DNA of 64,000 nucleotides. Origin: a virus. The position numbers were made by a program, and so were the translations under genes. The first letter of the stretch is position 1. Each line of letters begins with the position of its first letter. Location: IMG/VR virus record IMGVR_UViG_3300049846_001316, positions 1-64,000 of that record; one strand, given 5' to 3'. Below, piece by piece: positions 49,781-57,722 of this stretch. The notes below the pieces were generated by a model. The model was not told where the DNA came from. It ran no database searches and saw nothing but the letters and a program-made list of their open reading frames with translations.

Positions 49781-49794
49781 CTGAGGCCCCTCAG
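49781..49794. terminator. Small hairpin between convergent operons
   Basis: CTGAG GCCC CTCAG lies across the end of the leftward operon, 11 bases after the rightward stop. Five pairs with a four-base loop; a weak bidirectional terminator at best. Confidence 0.35.
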
Positions 49795-50891
49795 GCGCTC
49801 TGAGCGGCCAGATCGGTGTAGGCGTCGATCCAGTCGCTCCAACGCTGCCTCACGTCAAGCTGGGCCACGGAGACGAGCCCTTCGGCGCCGATCCGCTCCC
49901 GCTCCGCGGGGTCCGCGAGGCGCTCTAGGTGCTTTGTCCAATCTGCCGGTTTCCGAGCGAGCAGCCCGAGGCCATGCTCCCGGTGGAGCCATTCGTACTC
50001 CGGGGTGGCCTGCGCCACGAACGGGATGCCCGAGGCGGCGTACTCCATCCCCTTGATCGAGCTCTTGGCCAGGTTGAAGGGCGAGTTCGACAGCGGCACG
50101 AGTCCGATGTTGATGCCCTCGAACAACTCGGGGTACCGCTCGATGCCGCACATGGGCTTTGTGAAGACCCGCGCGCCACCCGGCAGCTTCATCGCCGCCT
50201 CGATCGAAGTGGCGGTCGGCCGGGGGTCGTGCCCTCCGTGGTAGAGACGTGCTCTCGGGTGACGAGCCAAGAACTGCTTCACCGCCCACCCGATCGTTTC
50301 GAGATCTCCGGACCGGAATCCAGTTGCTCCGACCCAGCCCAAGTGCGGCTCGCCGGCGAGCGGCTGTGGTGTCCACCGCTCCAAGTCGATGGCGTTGCGC
50401 ACCACCGCGATCGGCTTGTCCGGGAACTTCTGCTGGTACCGCTCCTTCAAGTACGGAGTGCTCACTGTGATGGCGCTTGAGGCAGCGATGTTGCGCTGAT
50501 AGAACTCCCGATTCGATCTCGGGTTGTGGTGCGGGTGAGTCGCTTTCCAGGCGTAGTTCCGCGGGTCGAGTCCGGGATACCAGTCGTCGATGTCTTGGAT
50601 GACGATTTGCCCGTACGCTCGAGCGCGGAGGAGCCCCTTGACTCCATCTTCCATCCATCGTTGGATGACGATGACGTCGAACCCGTCGAACTCGTTGCCT
50701 TCCCAGTCAACGAGCACGAGTTCACCACTCGGCCGCTGGTTCACCGCACCGAACTGCCGGGTGTAGATCCCGTTCAACCGAAGTTGCCGGGACGGGAGTC
50801 CGATGCGGTACCAGCCGGCTCCGCCCAGGGTGGGGTGGCCTTCTGCGTCTCGCGTGTTGGAGTAGTCGACGGTCGCGAAGCCGATCTTCAC
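49791..50891 (-). CDS. Glycosyltransferase, GT-B fold (group 1-like)
   Basis: A 366-residue protein. The N-terminal half has an acceptor-type Rossmann region (DVIVIQRWMEDGV, IVIQDIDDWYPG). The C-terminal half has the donor-site pattern (HLGWVGATGFRSGD, GLVPLSNSPFN, KGMEYAASGIPFVAQ) of group 1 glycosyltransferases. It transfers a sugar from a nucleotide donor; the acceptor could be virion protein, DNA or host glycan. Start GTG 50891 forms a GTGA with the upstream small gene; a TTG at 50906 is less likely. Confidence 0.82.
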   Translation of the reverse strand: MKIGFATVDYSNTRDAEGHPTLGGAGWYRIGLPSRQLRLNGIYTRQFGAVNQRPSGELVLVDWEGNEFDGFDVIVIQRWMEDGVKGLLRARAYGQIVIQDIDDWYPGLDPRNYAWKATHPHHNPRSNREFYQRNIAASSAITVSTPYLKERYQQKFPDKPIAVVRNAIDLERWTPQPLAGEPHLGWVGATGFRSGDLETIGWAVKQFLARHPRARLYHGGHDPRPTATSIEAAMKLPGGARVFTKPMCGIERYPELFEGINIGLVPLSNSPFNLAKSSIKGMEYAASGIPFVAQATPEYEWLHREHGLGLLARKPADWTKHLERLADPAERERIGAEGLVSVAQLDVRQRWSDWIDAYTDLAAQSA

Positions 50892-51010
50892 CGCACGAAT
50901 CTCCAAACGACGAAGATCACAAGGCCGACCGCGGCGTACACGCCGAGTGAGATCATGCAGCCGTTGTACAAGCCGCGCGCCTCACGGAGAGGGTCCTTGA
51001 GTTCGTCCAT
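50888..51010 (-). CDS. Small single-pass membrane protein
   Basis: A 40-residue protein: charged helix (MDELKDPLREARGLY) then one membrane segment (about residues 19-37). Both ends overlap neighbours (TGATG at its start, GTGA at its end), which argues that it is translated. Function unknown. Confidence 0.55.
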   Translation of the reverse strand: MDELKDPLREARGLYNGCMISLGVYAAVGLVIFVVWRFVR

Positions 51011-51180
51011 CAGTACGTATGGATCTTCACGAACTTGCCGCCCATGTGCGAGCTGCCGTCCTGACAGAGGCGGACTTCACGGATCTCGCGCATCGCGGTC
51101 GGGGAGACTCCCACCATGACCTGCGCGCCGTCGTGCTCGTTGATGTCCATGAGCGCCTGGATCAACTCGTCGATGTTCAC
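51010..51180 (-). CDS. Small hypothetical protein
   Basis: A 56-residue alpha-beta protein (MNIDELIQALMDINEHDG, VRLCQDGS). It resembles in size and pattern the 53-residue protein at 61051, both starting with a helix ending in a Gly/Asp turn followed by strands. GTG start in a GTGA overlap, stop in a TGATG. Confidence 0.58.
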   Translation of the reverse strand: MNIDELIQALMDINEHDGAQVMVGVSPTAMREIREVRLCQDGSSHMGGKFVKIHTY

Positions 51181-51890
51181 CGCTTCATTCCCCCATACTT
51201 CTTGTTGAATCGAACAAGGTCGTCGTACTTGGTCTGGTGGAGCTCTGGTACCTGTTGGGCAGAGTATTCGCCCATGTGGTCGACCGGAAGTCCGGTCACG
51301 ATGGCGGGCTTGGCGCCGGCGATCTCGAGTTGACGCACGAGGTCGTCGTCTCCGCACCACCACTCGAACTGCGGGTCCACGAAGGGCACTCCGCGCGTGG
51401 TGTGCCACTCCGCGGCGAACATGAAGGCCCAGCCGCAGATCCCGTGGTTGCGGTAGGTCCCGCGCACGAGATCAGGCCCGTGGTGCACCGAGTGCGCCGA
51501 CAGCGGAAGTCGGTAGTCCGGGCACACGATCCCGCGATCCGGGTCAGCTCGCAGCTCCTCTGCCAGAGGAGCGAGGAACTCCTGAGTCGGAATCGTGATG
51601 TCGTCGTTGAGGAACGCGAGATTGATCTCCTCGTCCGGGTACGACTCCAGCAGCATCGACCAGGCGAAGTTCCACATCCCGTAGAGGTCGTGATGTAGGT
51701 GCGCCGGAGGATGCCAGACTTCGAGCTTCGGGTCGCGCTCGTCCTCGGGCAGCCAATGGCGGAGGCGCTGATCGTCGGTGTCATCGAGAACGATGACGAG
51801 ATCGTGCTCGTCCAGATAGCGCAGGTCCACGAGGAGTTGGCGGAACGTGTCCGGGACGAACCGAGTCGGGATGGCAGCGATTGTTTTCAC
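51177..51890 (-). CDS. Glycosyltransferase-like protein, GT-A type
   Basis: A 237-residue protein with a GT2-like arrangement: IAAIPTRF at the N-terminus, a first strand LVIVLDD, then INLAFLNDDITIP holding the metal-binding acidic motif. Later RNHGICGWAFMFAAEW and WWCGDDDLVRQLEIAG give the acceptor/second acidic site. It is one of three glycosyltransferases in this block. Acceptor unknown. GTG start in a GTGA overlap. Confidence 0.75.
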   Translation of the reverse strand: MKTIAAIPTRFVPDTFRQLLVDLRYLDEHDLVIVLDDTDDQRLRHWLPEDERDPKLEVWHPPAHLHHDLYGMWNFAWSMLLESYPDEEINLAFLNDDITIPTQEFLAPLAEELRADPDRGIVCPDYRLPLSAHSVHHGPDLVRGTYRNHGICGWAFMFAAEWHTTRGVPFVDPQFEWWCGDDDLVRQLEIAGAKPAIVTGLPVDHMGEYSAQQVPELHQTKYDDLVRFNKKYGGMKR

Positions 51891-52345: not shown

Positions 52346-52614
52346 GCTTCCTCGCACTCCCCTTCCAGGTTCTCCTCGTCCTCGCAGGTGCAGATGCTCT
52401 GGTTGTGAGTCAAGCACCACTGGAACGGGTAGGCCATCTTCTTCTCGGGTTCGGGGAGCACGCGCAGGCGCATGATCTCGACGGGATTCTCCTCGTCGGT
52501 CAGCATGTCCTCGATGTCACCCCAGTCGTTCTCGCCGTAGCAGGCGAAGAACGTGTACTCACCGATGTCCTCGCCATCGGCGCGCATGACGATGTGGCTC
52601 GGGATCTTCCTCAT
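52342..52614 (-). CDS. Small acidic protein
   Basis: A 90-residue acidic protein with a beta-type N-terminal half (IVMRADGEDIGEYTFFACYG) and a Cys triad CLTHNQSICTC near the end. Overlaps both neighbours (ATGA and GTGA). No family recognised. Confidence 0.62.
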   Translation of the reverse strand: MRKIPSHIVMRADGEDIGEYTFFACYGENDWGDIEDMLTDEENPVEIMRLRVLPEPEKKMAYPFQWCLTHNQSICTCEDEENLEGECEEA

Positions 52615-53387
52615 CGGTAGTACGTCCTGTCCGCGTCGCGCTCCTCGACTCCGACGAGGGGCTCGACGTGGGTGCCCACGACGTCGTGCCGCACCCACGT
52701 CTGGCCGAATCCGAACTCCTGCGCGTCGGCCTGGAAGCACGGATCGTCGGTCGAGCCGGACTGCAAGTCCCAACGCCACCGCATCTTCCGGAACACGTCT
52801 CGACGCACCATCATGAACCCGGCGGTCGTCCAGTGCTCCTGGAGATCCATGTCCCGGTACTCCGGGTTCGGGACCTTCGGCCCGGAGTGCGCGTAGTTCG
52901 GCACGTGCCCGCAGACGATCCCGTGGTCGACCTCGAGGAGTCGGTTCACCGAGTCGGCCGGCACGCTGGTGTCGGTGTCGATGAACAGGATGTGCGAGAT
53001 GCTGAAGTCCGACTGCGCGTACTCGTGGGCGAGGTTGCGTCCGGCGCAGATGCGGTGCAGCCGACTCCGGCCGTCGAACTCCTGGATCAGATCATCGACC
53101 CGGAACTGCCACGTCACCACGTCCCACGCGGGGTCGGCCGCAGCCTTGACCTCGCACAGACGATCTTCGAGCGCGTCGTACGGCTCCATGCCGCGGCCGT
53201 CGACCTCGGCGGCGAGGAAGTGGGTCAGGCGGATGCCCGCGTCCTCGGCACGCATCAGGCGTTCCTCGGCGCGGTCGAGCCACGCCAGCTCACCGACGCC
53301 GTTGCACTTCCACGGCGCGCACGTGGTCGCAACGAGCACGTGCGGTGTCTCAGGCGGTGGCGTTCGTACGATGTCCACGAGGGTCAT
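52611..53387 (-). CDS. Glycosyltransferase, GT-A type (GT2-like)
   Basis: A 258-residue protein. HVLVATTCAPWKC starts the first strand; ISHILFIDTDTSVP (about residues 132-145) supplies the DxD metal site; TTAGFMMVRRDVFRKM and STDDPCFQADAQEFG are the acceptor-side and second acidic motifs usual in GT2 proteins. It probably modifies phage or host surface, or modified DNA bases; the acceptor is unknown. AGGA-type ribosome site before the ATG. Confidence 0.78.
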   Translation of the reverse strand: MTLVDIVRTPPPETPHVLVATTCAPWKCNGVGELAWLDRAEERLMRAEDAGIRLTHFLAAEVDGRGMEPYDALEDRLCEVKAAADPAWDVVTWQFRVDDLIQEFDGRSRLHRICAGRNLAHEYAQSDFSISHILFIDTDTSVPADSVNRLLEVDHGIVCGHVPNYAHSGPKVPNPEYRDMDLQEHWTTAGFMMVRRDVFRKMRWRWDLQSGSTDDPCFQADAQEFGFGQTWVRHDVVGTHVEPLVGVEERDADRTYYR

Positions 53388-53398
53388 GAGGGTCCTTC

Positions 53399-54010
53399 CT
53401 AGGTCCAGAGATTGAACTCGGGGTTGGCTTGGTTTCTATCGAGCCACCGGAGCAGCTTGGGGAGATTCGTGTCGGGGCCGAAGCCAAGGTAGGTGCCGTC
53501 CGCGGTCGCGCACCCCAGCGAGTCGGCGTACTTGAGGCGGCTGAACGAGTTGACCCGGCCCATGTGGACCGGCATCCCCCGCCGCACGCCCTCGGTGATC
53601 AGTGCCCGAGCATCGGGACTGAGCTTCCATTCGGTCGAGCCGCCAATGAAGAGGGTGTGCGCCTCGTCCCACGGGATCGACTCGATGGTGGCACCGTCTT
53701 GCAGAACGATCGCGCGTGGCCACGCGTGGAGGTAGTCGCACCAGTCCCGCCACGACGCGAGTGTCGCTTCCCAGTCGTACAGGACGTCAGGGACAGCCAC
53801 GAAGAGACAGCCCGCCATGAACGGGCGATACGCCTCGAGAGCAGAAAGATACGCGTCCTCGTCGAAGCCCGCGTACGCACCGTTGTCGAGTCCCCACTTC
53901 CACCCGTGGCGGACCTTGTTACGGGTCGCAGGGGTGACGAACGCACCGAGTGTGCCTTCGGTGATGAGGCCCTTGACCACATCGTTATGCGGAGTCACGA
54001 GGTACAGCAC
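53399..54010 (-). CDS. dpdA: DpdA-type DNA transglycosylase (7-deazaguanine insertion)
   Basis: A 203-residue TIM-barrel-like protein of the tRNA-guanine-transglycosylase superfamily, phage DpdA type. Visible motifs: WGLDNGAY (residues 39-46), FVAVPDVLYD (70-79), IVLQDGAT (101-108), LFIGGSTEWKL (120-130), VHMGRVNSFSRLKYA (148-162) and TADGTYLGFGPD (169-180), with D171 a candidate catalytic Asp. DpdA proteins replace guanine in DNA by preQ0 or a derivative. GTG 54010 keeps the first strand LYLVTPHN; it overlaps the QueF-like gene by 26 bases. Recognition is by motif memory, not a search. Confidence 0.78.
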   Translation of the reverse strand: MLYLVTPHNDVVKGLITEGTLGAFVTPATRNKVRHGWKWGLDNGAYAGFDEDAYLSALEAYRPFMAGCLFVAVPDVLYDWEATLASWRDWCDYLHAWPRAIVLQDGATIESIPWDEAHTLFIGGSTEWKLSPDARALITEGVRRGMPVHMGRVNSFSRLKYADSLGCATADGTYLGFGPDTNLPKLLRWLDRNQANPEFNLWT

Positions 54011-54263
54011 ACTCGATCCCCATGCCGGCGGTTGACCACTCGGTCGTGATGTCCGCGTGCGGGTAGTAGTTGTGGAGCTCGGCGGTGAGTCGCTCGTGGG
54101 TGATCCTGCGAGCAGCAAACTCGTCGAGGTGGGTGCGGAGATCATGGAACTCAATCTCTCCGTCGTCCGGGTTGTACGTGAGGGTGACCGTGCCGTAGTC
54201 CGTCTCGTCTCGGAAGGGGCACAGGTGAACGATGGGTGCGGTCACACGGACTTGCAGGTTCAT
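53985..54263 (-). CDS. queF: Minimal QueF-family T-fold protein
   Basis: A 92-residue protein that lines up with the catalytic core of QueF. HLCPFRDETDYGTVTLTY holds C15 and D22 in the same seven-residue spacing as the active-site Cys and Asp of QueF. E38 and the H56-E57 pair (RITHERL) match the substrate-binding Glu and the His-Glu motif. QueF reduces preQ0 to preQ1. The QueF NADPH motif (ESKSLK type) is replaced here by EFHDLR, nearer to the archaeal amidinotransferase QueF-L, so the product could be preQ1 or an archaeosine-type base. ATGA overlap upstream. Very short for the family. Confidence 0.75.
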   Translation of the reverse strand: MNLQVRVTAPIVHLCPFRDETDYGTVTLTYNPDDGEIEFHDLRTHLDEFAARRITHERLTAELHNYYPHADITTEWSTAGMGIECAVPRDSA

Positions 54264-54799
54264 GCGACTGCCCGCCGGCGAAGTCGGAACGGAGCGATGA
54301 CGATGAGCGCCGGGAGGATCATGAGGGTCTTGAGCCAGAACTGGCCCCACAGAAAGTCGAGCGAGTGGAAGGCGAGCCAGAGGAACACCACCGAGTCGAC
54401 CAGGCTCCCGACCGTGTTCGAGAGCACCACGCCCCACGTCCACTTGCCTCGCTCCGCGAGCGGCGTGTACACCGCCCAGTCGAGTCCTTCCCCGAGCAGG
54501 AACGCGCACCCCGACGCCCACGCCAGAGACGGGGCAACGAGGTAGGACAGCGCGGCGCCGACCACGATGGCAGCGGCGATCTTCCACTTGCCGAGGGCGA
54601 GCTGGGCGCCGTCCCGCAGACTGAACGACAGACCGACGAACAGGACCCCACTCGGGGCCGTCCACGGGCCGATCGTGACGGTGTGCGGACCGCCGGGGAA
54701 CGGCACGGTGCCCCAGTGCTGGATGGCGTAGTTGGCGAGGAAGATGCACCCGATGAATCCGGCGAGGCAGATCCACCCGAGCTTGCGGTTGAGGGTCAT
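54260..54799 (-). CDS. yhhQ: YhhQ/VUT-family queuosine-precursor transporter
   Basis: A 179-residue membrane protein with about five to six segments. The segment CAFLLGEGLDWAVYTPL (about residues 97-113) followed by SNTVGSLVDSVVFLWLAF (about 126-143) matches the hallmark of the YhhQ/VUT (DUF165) family, which imports preQ0 and preQ1. It is somewhat shorter than cellular YhhQ. AGGAGA precedes the ATG, and the stop overlaps the QueF-like gene (ATGA). It would raise the pool of precursor for DpdA. Confidence 0.85.
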   Translation of the reverse strand: MTLNRKLGWICLAGFIGCIFLANYAIQHWGTVPFPGGPHTVTIGPWTAPSGVLFVGLSFSLRDGAQLALGKWKIAAAIVVGAALSYLVAPSLAWASGCAFLLGEGLDWAVYTPLAERGKWTWGVVLSNTVGSLVDSVVFLWLAFHSLDFLWGQFWLKTLMILPALIVIAPFRLRRRAVA

Positions 54800-54806
54800 G
54801 GTTCTC

Positions 54807-55388
54807 CTATTGCTTCCAGGCGAGGGCCTGCACGTCCCCGCGGTGAAGTGTGTTGATCTCGTGACGAGCGAAGTTGTAGAGGAGCGTGTCCTCGAGTGCC
54901 TTGGGGTCGACGTTGGCGTAGTACTCCACTCCGTGCGGAACGAACGTCTCTGATCCCCGTGGGCCGGGGTCATCCGTGAGGAACTTGTCCGTGTACTCCT
55001 CGGGCTCCATGTTGTGCCCGTCCACGGCTGAGTGCGGAGCCCGCGGGTCGCACGCCGCGGTCATGATCGCGATGCCGTCGACCTTGAGGAACTTCGCCAT
55101 GTTGGCGACGATGTTGCGCCACTCGGGAGTGTGCTCGAAGACCTCGAGGCACAGCACCACGTCGAACGTGAGATCGCGCGCCGTCGTCCAAGTGGCAGCG
55201 TTGCCCACGTGGTCGACTCCGGGACCGGGCACGATGTCGACGCCCATGTACTCGGCGTCGGGGAACAGATCCCGGACACCGCCGTTGATGTCGAGGGAAC
55301 CGAACTCGAGCACGCTGAGTCCCTTCCACGACTTGAGGTTGCACCGCTTCACAGCGGCCTCCACGAACCATCGACACTCCGCGTGCAT
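54807..55388 (-). CDS. SAM-dependent methyltransferase (class I)
   Basis: A 193-residue protein. Motif I SVLEFGSLDINGG (about residues 25-37), acidic motif II YMGVDIVPG, and motif IV FDVVLCLEVFEHTPEW (about 75-90) are those of Methyltransf_11-type enzymes. Small molecules or sugars are the usual targets. It sits just upstream of the deazaguanine trio, so methylation of a modified base or of a sugar are both possible. TGATG overlap with the nuclease gene. Confidence 0.8.
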   Translation of the reverse strand: MHAECRWFVEAAVKRCNLKSWKGLSVLEFGSLDINGGVRDLFPDAEYMGVDIVPGPGVDHVGNAATWTTARDLTFDVVLCLEVFEHTPEWRNIVANMAKFLKVDGIAIMTAACDPRAPHSAVDGHNMEPEEYTDKFLTDDPGPRGSETFVPHGVEYYANVDPKALEDTLLYNFARHEINTLHRGDVQALAWKQ

Positions 55389-56808: not shown

Positions 56809-57540
56809 TCATGCTCCGTTTTCCGTGAAGAAGGTTGGGCGTGCCAACCGGGACCGTGCTGCATCAGCGTAGCCGGAATCGACCTCGATGCCAATGCCTC
56901 TTCGACCCAAGTTCATCGCCGCGACGACGGTGGAACCGGACCCGGCGAAGGGGTCCACGACCACTTCGCCCCGCTCTGTGCTCATCTCCACGAGGCGCTC
57001 GATCAGGGCGACCGGCTTCTCGGTGGGATGGATGTGCTGCTTGCTCCCGAGCTTGTCGACGTGGATGATGGCGGAGCGGCGGTATGGGACTTCGCGGCGC
57101 CCCTTCTTGAAATACATGATCAGCTCGTGGCCGCAGCCCCAGTTGCCGTCGAGGTCGCCCATGCCGGGGATGCCCTTGTCCCACACCAACAGCATCTTGT
57201 ACAAGAAGCCGTAGTCTTGCATCAGGGGGACGAGGGCCGACTCCCACTCGTGGAGGCAGTCCCATTTGGTGAAGACGTAGAGGTCGCACTGCTCCCGAGT
57301 CTTCGGCAGGAGCAGTTGCATGGCCTCCCCGAACAGCGCCAGGGCGCCGGCCATGTCGCCGTCGTTCTCGATCTCCTTCACGAACCGCTTGCCCTGCGGA
57401 GTCGTGGCTCGGAAGCTCTTGAACGCCACGCCGTAGGGCGGGTCCGTGATGATGCACGGAATGTTGTCAGGGAGGGTCGGGATCAGATCCCGGCAATCCC
57501 CGTTGAGGATCTCTGAGCGACCCACGTTGACGCGCTTCAC
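56809..57540 (-). CDS. DNA amino-methyltransferase (N6-adenine or N4-cytosine)
   Basis: A 243-residue protein with DPPYG at residues 33-37 (catalytic motif IV) and VVVDPFAGSGSTVVAA near the end (motif I). The DPPY-before-FxGxG order is the beta class. VYVFTKWDC and the Gly/His-rich part between may form the target site. GTG 57540 forms a GTGA with the upstream membrane-protein gene; two further GTG codons upstream are in frame. Likely protects phage DNA from restriction. Confidence 0.88.
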   Translation of the reverse strand: MKRVNVGRSEILNGDCRDLIPTLPDNIPCIITDPPYGVAFKSFRATTPQGKRFVKEIENDGDMAGALALFGEAMQLLLPKTREQCDLYVFTKWDCLHEWESALVPLMQDYGFLYKMLLVWDKGIPGMGDLDGNWGCGHELIMYFKKGRREVPYRRSAIIHVDKLGSKQHIHPTEKPVALIERLVEMSTERGEVVVDPFAGSGSTVVAAMNLGRRGIGIEVDSGYADAARSRLARPTFFTENGA

Positions 57541-57722
57541 GCCCACGCCCACTCGATCCCCTTCCAGATGATGCCGCCGATCAGCACCGCCAGCAGGATC
57601 GCGAGCAGCGCGATGACGACCATCGTGGAGTTGACGGCGATCTTCATTGCCGTGGACATCGGCTTCTTCGGCTCGGGGACGACCATCTCGTACGTCTCCC
57701 GGTCGAATGGGTTATCGGACAT
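57537..57722 (-). CDS. Small single-pass membrane protein
   Basis: A 61-residue protein with a polar N-terminal half ending KKPMSTAMKIAV and one C-terminal membrane segment (about residues 32-55, MVVIALLAILLAVLIGGIIW). It overlaps the resolvase gene by 11 bases and the methyltransferase by four. Function unknown; a holin-like or envelope role is possible. Confidence 0.62.
   Translation of the reverse strand: MSDNPFDRETYEMVVPEPKKPMSTAMKIAVNSTMVVIALLAILLAVLIGGIIWKGIEWAWA

Follow-up and report, generated by a model that had tools for sequence, protein, structure and literature searches.

QueF and archaeal QueF-L are described as forming a common thioimide intermediate and as differing in the nucleophile that resolves it, which is hydride in the former and ammonia in the latter (PMC5485725). 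The substrate of QueF-L is preQ0-tRNA, which reacts with NH4+ through a thioimide on Cys21 to give G+-tRNA, and a conserved thioimide Cys and acid/base Asp are given in the same paper as characteristic of QueF-L (PMC5485725). In QueF, the active-site residues are Cys55, Asp62, Glu97 and Glu78, while the QueF motif E(S/L)K(S/A)hK(L/Y)(Y/F/W) serves NADPH binding (PMC5372742). QueF and QueF-L are reported to be hard to distinguish by sequence, and for phages that carry DpdA and no biosynthesis genes the modification status is called difficult to predict (PMC6884629). Here we describe a protein of this superfamily, designated mini-QueF, that is encoded in the window analysed, a stretch of 64,000 nucleotides belonging to a viral contig of 78,169 bases with ~65% G+C. 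The gene is an ATG-started open reading frame of 92 codons at 53985..54263 on the minus strand. The carrier is an actinobacterial phage; the closest named DNA relatives at this locus are phages of Rhodococcus, Arthrobacter and Streptomyces.

Homology, family members and predicted fold of mini-QueF

Taken alone, the window protein matched the NCBIfam QueF-II model with E 6.5e-7 and 29.2 bits, below the equivalog cut-off of 86.9 bits, and the Pfam QueF-like protein family (PF14489) with E 9.2e-5 and 23 bits, below the gathering score of 27.3 bits. Its relative gp39 of Arthrobacter phage Aoka reached 35.7 bits with QueF-II, also below the cut-off, and the other members scored with PF14489 gave 16.7 (viral contig L104), 27.3 (L098, Nocardia farcinica, equal to the cut-off), 29.5 (Aoka) and 33.5 bits (viral contig L103). 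Once relatives were added, the sequence comparisons placed mini-QueF firmly in the QueF superfamily: profile-profile alignment of nine family members with 13 canonical QueF sequences gave a probability of 98.7% and E 1.7e-16 over 93 columns, and in a profile search of solved structures archaeal QueF-L came out best (E 3e-7), followed by Vibrio cholerae QueF (8.7e-6). A chance reading frame is ruled out by this match together with the conservation of the family.

We found 12 members of the family, namely the window protein, Aoka gp39, a protein on a Nocardia farcinica contig and nine proteins on further viral contigs. They measure 92-111 residues, all but the window protein falling between 104 and 111, and include proteins whose identity to the window protein is as low as 31-43%; the size of the N. 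farcinica member is approximate, its start having been taken at an in-frame position near the VUT overlap. Aoka gp39 (ON755180, annotated 'hypothetical protein') has 109 residues, with a longer N-terminus than the window protein, and 87% of the query aligned to it at 45.3% identity. It was recovered by a QueF query, and the N. farcinica, L103 and L104 members by family-profile scans; scanning viral contigs with an alignment of the neighbouring DpdA yielded 80 loci, seven of which encode mini-QueF. Scans of viral contigs and of genomes with the single protein or a small alignment returned no relatives, and a plasmid search gave weak matches only. Applied to 396 Actinomycetota genomes, the family profile had matches in 50 of them with E no higher than 1e-3, and the one strong match was N. 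farcinica (1.8e-30); the next best stood at 1.8e-12, and the 19 next-best loci encode canonical-type QueF. Among the listings of a literature search covering openly accessible papers, we found no publication naming the family. Mini-QueF forms a new subfamily, both its superfamily and its kind of pathway being known.

A structure was predicted with AlphaFold2 from an alignment of eight family members. The best of five models had a mean pLDDT of 93.3 and a pTM of 0.83 (two others had mean pLDDT values of 71.0 and 67.7), and consists of strands at residues 5-14 and 21-30, helices at 39-51 and 56-66, and strands at 70-78 and 81-87, which is the complete beta-beta-alpha-alpha-beta-beta arrangement of a T-fold. 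Its closest solved fold is archaeal QueF-L from Pyrobaculum calidifontis (PDB 5jyx/5k0p), which aligned to the model with Z 14.7, rmsd 2.0 and 20% identity over 92 residues (5k0p_B) and was also ranked first by Foldseek (E 4.9e-6). Human GTP cyclohydrolase I followed with Z 12.2 and rmsd 2.0 over 91 aligned residues, and Bacillus subtilis QueF (4f8b) with Z 12.0 and rmsd 1.6 over 92. Unnamed small viral proteins of 83 and 88 residues were also among the structural neighbours. From the model, mini-QueF can confidently be described as a single complete T-fold homologous to QueF, so the kinship to QueF and QueF-L put forward in the original prediction was borne out. Its statement that flanking parts are missing is correct for the additional segments at the ends of canonical QueF and does not extend to the T-fold, which is whole; likewise, its view that the protein is far shorter than known QueF is right against the 165-residue chain of B. 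subtilis QueF and does not carry over to QueF-L, with 109 residues, or to the QueF-L-like gp33 of phage MMDA13, with 98 (PMC7472734). A fused second T-fold domain is ruled out, because the neighbouring VUT and DpdA genes overlap mini-QueF on either side and leave no space for one.

Residue signature and phylogenetic position

To define the residue signature, the 12 mini-QueF proteins were aligned by MAFFT with 25 canonical QueF rows. The equivalents of Cys55, Asp62, Glu78 and Glu97, and also of His96, are present in 12 of 12 members, so that the thioimide Cys, the acid/base Asp and the preQ0-anchoring Glu are unchanged throughout the family; in the window protein these residues are C15, D22, E38, H56 and E57, exactly those that the original prediction had equated with the QueF active site. 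It had further noted a non-canonical cofactor motif, and indeed none of the 12 proteins fits the published QueF motif (PMC5372742), the corresponding region reading EFHDLRTH in the window protein and ELHSLRxY in the family. With EFHDLR, the window protein therefore shows its own variant of a motif, ELHSLR, that the family conserves, and not random decay. Within this region, the position of Lys80 is His in all 12 members, where canonical rows have Lys (22) or Arg (3), and the position of Lys83 is Arg in nine members and Ala in three, where all 25 canonical rows have Lys; Leu82 is kept and position 85 is aromatic in most. The Arg of the RGG element, which we assume to function in NADPH binding, is found in all 25 canonical rows, while its column holds Ala in every mini-QueF in the MAFFT alignment and faces a gap in the profile-profile alignment, an Arg appearing in mini-QueF in neither. 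Moreover, four residues are new and invariant in the family: H13 and E20, which lie on the loop that carries the catalytic Cys and Asp, H40 and W76. The family consensus reads HLCPF..E.D.G ... ELHSLR.Y ... SHE.LT ... W.TAGM. Among canonical QueF itself, His96 is replaced by Ala in eight of the 25 rows, as in the canonical-motif QueF proteins of six Actinomycetota loci (L122, L123, L125, L127, L129 and L130), and by Cys in the canonical-motif QueF gp2 of phage Funsized (L005:1296-1694).

Compared with the solved enzymes, mini-QueF shares the T-fold and the matched Cys55, Asp62, Glu78 and Glu97 with the unimodular preQ0 reductase of B. subtilis (PDB 4f8b), and unlike it lacks the QueF motif, the RGG Arg and the additional terminal parts. 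With archaeal QueF-L it has in common a short single T-fold, the catalytic Cys and Asp and the HE pair, as well as the loss of the QueF motif and the RGG Arg. However, QueF-L, for which one sequence was compared, has Ala at Glu78 where mini-QueF keeps Glu, and it contains none of H13, E20, H40 and W76. MMDA13 gp33 carries Cys and Asp at positions matching those of mini-QueF but has Met in place of His96, and its hhalign comparison with the mini-QueF family was not significant; it adjoins a deazaguanine pathway, in a phage that encodes the full preQ0 pathway, unlike the mini-QueF phages as judged by QueC and QueD.

In a superfamily tree of 40 rows and 101 columns, in which archaeal QueF-L is represented by a single, fragmentary sequence, the 12 mini-QueF proteins formed one side of a branch with support of 90/75, which is under the program's star level, and the terminal branches of QueF-L and MMDA13 gp33 exceeded six changes per column. 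The sequences thus weakly support a clade of its own for mini-QueF, beside QueF and QueF-L, the two groups with which a phylogeny had been called for, and inside neither. We refrained from filing the family as QueF-L, since the tree, with its one archaeal sequence, neither joins the two nor rejects a constraint uniting them (AU p 0.341). Filing it as a standard QueF reductase was rejected, since both the QueF motif and the NCBIfam equivalog cut-off are missed, and reduction survives as a rival chemistry.

Gene neighbourhood of mini-QueF

The most telling evidence on the function of mini-QueF is provided by its neighbours. The gene directly upstream (54260..54799, minus strand) encodes a VUT/YhhQ-type transporter of 179 residues, whose stop codon overlaps the mini-QueF start as ATGA. 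It matched Pfam Vut_1 with 35 bits, above the cut-off of 27.2, and the NCBIfam queuosine precursor transporter model (TIGR00697) with 29.8 bits, under the equivalog cut-off of 50.95; judging by these matches, it likely imports preQ0 or a related 7-deazapurine base. The 3' end of mini-QueF is overlapped by a GTG-started gene (53399..54010, minus strand) for a short, 203-residue DpdA-type 7-deazaguanine DNA transglycosylase, relatives of which are annotated DpdA-like in phages Aoka and Sonali. For this protein we found no Pfam TGT (PF01702) match (G000; P0018), while 14 of 14 controls matched. Its structure model (pLDDT 94.4) has a TGT-type fold, TGT entries filling all 50 of the structural matches listed, the best with Z 14.6 and rmsd 3.1 over 193 aligned residues. 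In the DpdA encoded by one viral contig (L104:5312-6010), the domain is interrupted midway by a cysteine-rich insertion that resembles a zinc ribbon.

DpdA lies directly downstream of mini-QueF in 12 of 12 members, a count that is biased for the seven found via DpdA and unbiased for Aoka, N. farcinica, L103 and L104. VUT lies directly upstream in 11, giving the order VUT / mini-QueF / DpdA, which Aoka shares with the window; in the remaining locus, L033, one query detected no VUT within 5 kb upstream. VUT proteins of the same family also adjoin DpdA in other phages: in ReqiPine5 (gp03-gp04) and GreaseLightnin (gp54-gp55), the same two gene families are adjacent with no mini-QueF between them. 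Across the 80 DpdA loci, which include near-identical contigs and truncated ends, a VUT match occurred somewhere in the fetched stretch in 53, in four of these downstream. On a DpdA tree of 72 distinct sequences (from 88 rows, with loci truncated upstream scored as lacking mini-QueF), the scatter of mini-QueF corresponds to six changes, of which starred branches force only one, and repeated gain or loss was not shown.

Phage-encoded preQ0 synthesis was considered and rejected, since neither QueC nor QueD, the two searched for out of QueC, QueD, QueE and FolE, was matched in any of 10 phage records, of which Aoka is the sole complete isolate genome; among the control genomes QueC was matched in 12 of 14 and QueD in 9 of 14. 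In N. farcinica, QueC and QueD occur together on one contig, and the genome contains no second QueF match. The same genome (G001) carries on contig C898:124-1287 a strong match to host-type TGT with one internal TAG, which is either a pseudogene or a sequencing error.

Further genes on the minus strand surround the cassette in the window. A SAM methyltransferase gene (54807-55388) lies directly upstream, and downstream follow another protein gene (52611-53387) and two glycosyltransferase-like genes (51177-51890 and 49791-50906). From their sequence assignments, it is conceivable that the flanking methyltransferase and glycosyltransferase-like proteins decorate the modified base further. Nearby, a gene at 56809-57552 encodes an N6/N4 DNA methylase (PF01555, E 1e-28), likely a second DNA modification in the same phage.

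Candidate chemistries and possibly related families

Based on these observations, we tentatively propose, at somewhat less than an even chance, that mini-QueF performs the tailoring in a 7-deazaguanine DNA salvage cassette of three genes, in which ammonia would likely resolve the thioimide to give dG+. The VUT protein would import preQ0 from the surroundings, for which a preQ0-making host would also suffice, and the short DpdA would swap preQ0 for guanine in phage DNA. Before or after this insertion, Cys15 would capture the nitrile of preQ0 as a thioimide with Asp22 as acid/base, and Glu57, perhaps with Glu38, would hold the base in an active site that we infer to lie where T-folds meet in a ring-shaped assembly. 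Given the remodelling of the NADPH-binding residues, a small nucleophile would most likely resolve the thioimide, with ammonia first in line to yield archaeosine, as in archaeal QueF-L. The salvage cassette is suggested by the conserved gene order and by the absence of QueC and QueD matches from the phage records. Amidination is suggested by the position of QueF-L as nearest structure, ahead of QueF, by the loss of the QueF motif and RGG Arg in every member as in QueF-L, by the invariant thioimide Cys, Asp and Glu, and by the precedent of QueF-L with NH4+; on the opposing side stands the tree, which does not join the two families, although it does not reject their union either. We rank the chemistries as amidination, reduction and hydration in this order, archaeosine being a first guess. 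The three alternatives of the original prediction, a QueF-L-like amidinotransferase, an unusual reductase and an enzyme making a new deazaguanine, all keep a place among the readings.

It is unlikely, though to be taken seriously, that mini-QueF is instead a minimal QueF reductase, in which His40 and Arg43 would replace the two Lys in NAD(P)H binding and the preQ1 formed would appear in DNA as dPreQ1. Reduction gains some probability from Glu78, which is Ala in the one QueF-L compared and is kept in all 12 members, and from the basic residue, Arg, at position 83 in nine; Leu82 and the mostly aromatic position 85 are retained as well. There is also precedent for phage proteins first called QueF-L, by HHpred, in phages whose DNA carries dPreQ1, namely Dp-1 and HVTV-1 (PMC6884629). 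However, in the sequences of the Dp-1 protein and of a protein of the halovirus HCTV-16 we found the canonical motif intact, so these provide no precedent for a motif-less reductase, and if the canonical motif predicts reduction in such phages, a rule drawn from few cases, then its loss in mini-QueF argues against reduction. The loss of Lys80 and of the RGG Arg throughout the family and the Ala at position 83 in three members weigh on the same side.

Less probable again is a nitrile hydratase or hydrolase, in which water activated by His13, Glu20 or His40 would lead to dADG or dCDG, or the formation of another, unreported 7-deazaguanine. Such an activity could account for the four family-specific invariant residues, two of which share a loop with the catalytic Cys and Asp, and dADG is present in phage 7-11, its enzyme being given as not known in PMC6884629. 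On the other hand, structure searches disclosed no solved superfamily member with this activity, and PMC5372742 characterizes the thioimide of QueF as very stable. We consider it quite improbable that mini-QueF is a non-enzymatic, chaperone-like T-fold that binds preQ0 and passes it from the transporter to DpdA: the tight coupling of the three genes and the very small size would suit such a role, yet all the residues of thioimide chemistry are kept at the low sequence identity noted above. Hardly credible is an identity or kinship with DpdL, which Cui et al. are said to have described in 2023 as a 7-carboxy-7-deazaguanine decarboxylase, as its sole attraction is that DpdL, too, reportedly tailors a 7-deazaguanine for phage DNA, while QueD and QueC gave no match in the phage records and a decarboxylase has no evident use for the conserved thioimide Cys.

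Returning to mini-QueF as the tailoring enzyme of the salvage cassette, it may be, with a probability we place at about a third, that the family stands as a third branch within the QueF superfamily, beside the NADPH-dependent nitrile reductase and the ammonia-using QueF-L. Its distinctive active site would be composed of His13, Glu20, His40 and Trp76 along with Cys and Asp, and it would perform the sole tailoring step of a salvage-only cassette, making either dG+ by an independent route or a 7-deazaguanine unreported from the superfamily. The product is so far not predictable from sequence. The family offers a clean test case, with a defined residue signature and a three-gene cassette in an isolated phage, Aoka, whose host is Arthrobacter globiformis. 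Its product would reveal which residues decide whether hydride, ammonia or water acts as the nucleophile on a common thioimide and would also tell whether phages make modified DNA purely from scavenged base.

In the course of the analysis we also observed an even smaller family, comprising 75 distinct sequences of 77-84 residues with invariant CPxD and HE-like motifs, examples being encoded in Rhizobium phage RHph_X2_30 (L009:4784-5017), Microcystis phage Mae-JY30 (L133:3001-3240) and Pseudomonas phage Epa33 (L134:3001-3246), with further matches in L135-L214. All 83 loci examined contain a relative of a ~230-residue gene of P0012/P0009 type, labelled transglycosylase in phage Pam5, and VUT is also present in four of them. 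An hhalign comparison of the family gave 26% and E 7e-4 over 52 columns, and its sequences had no match in the PDB; the 77-residue RHph_X2_30 protein gave no significant comparison with the mini-QueF family. A kinship to QueF is thus suggestive only. Finally, on a Natronosalvus halobius plasmid (L110:2944-4006), a QueF-like gene of 113 codons with the motif ESRSLKLW overlaps a DUF6610 gene, possibly another pairing with a transglycosylase in haloarchaea.
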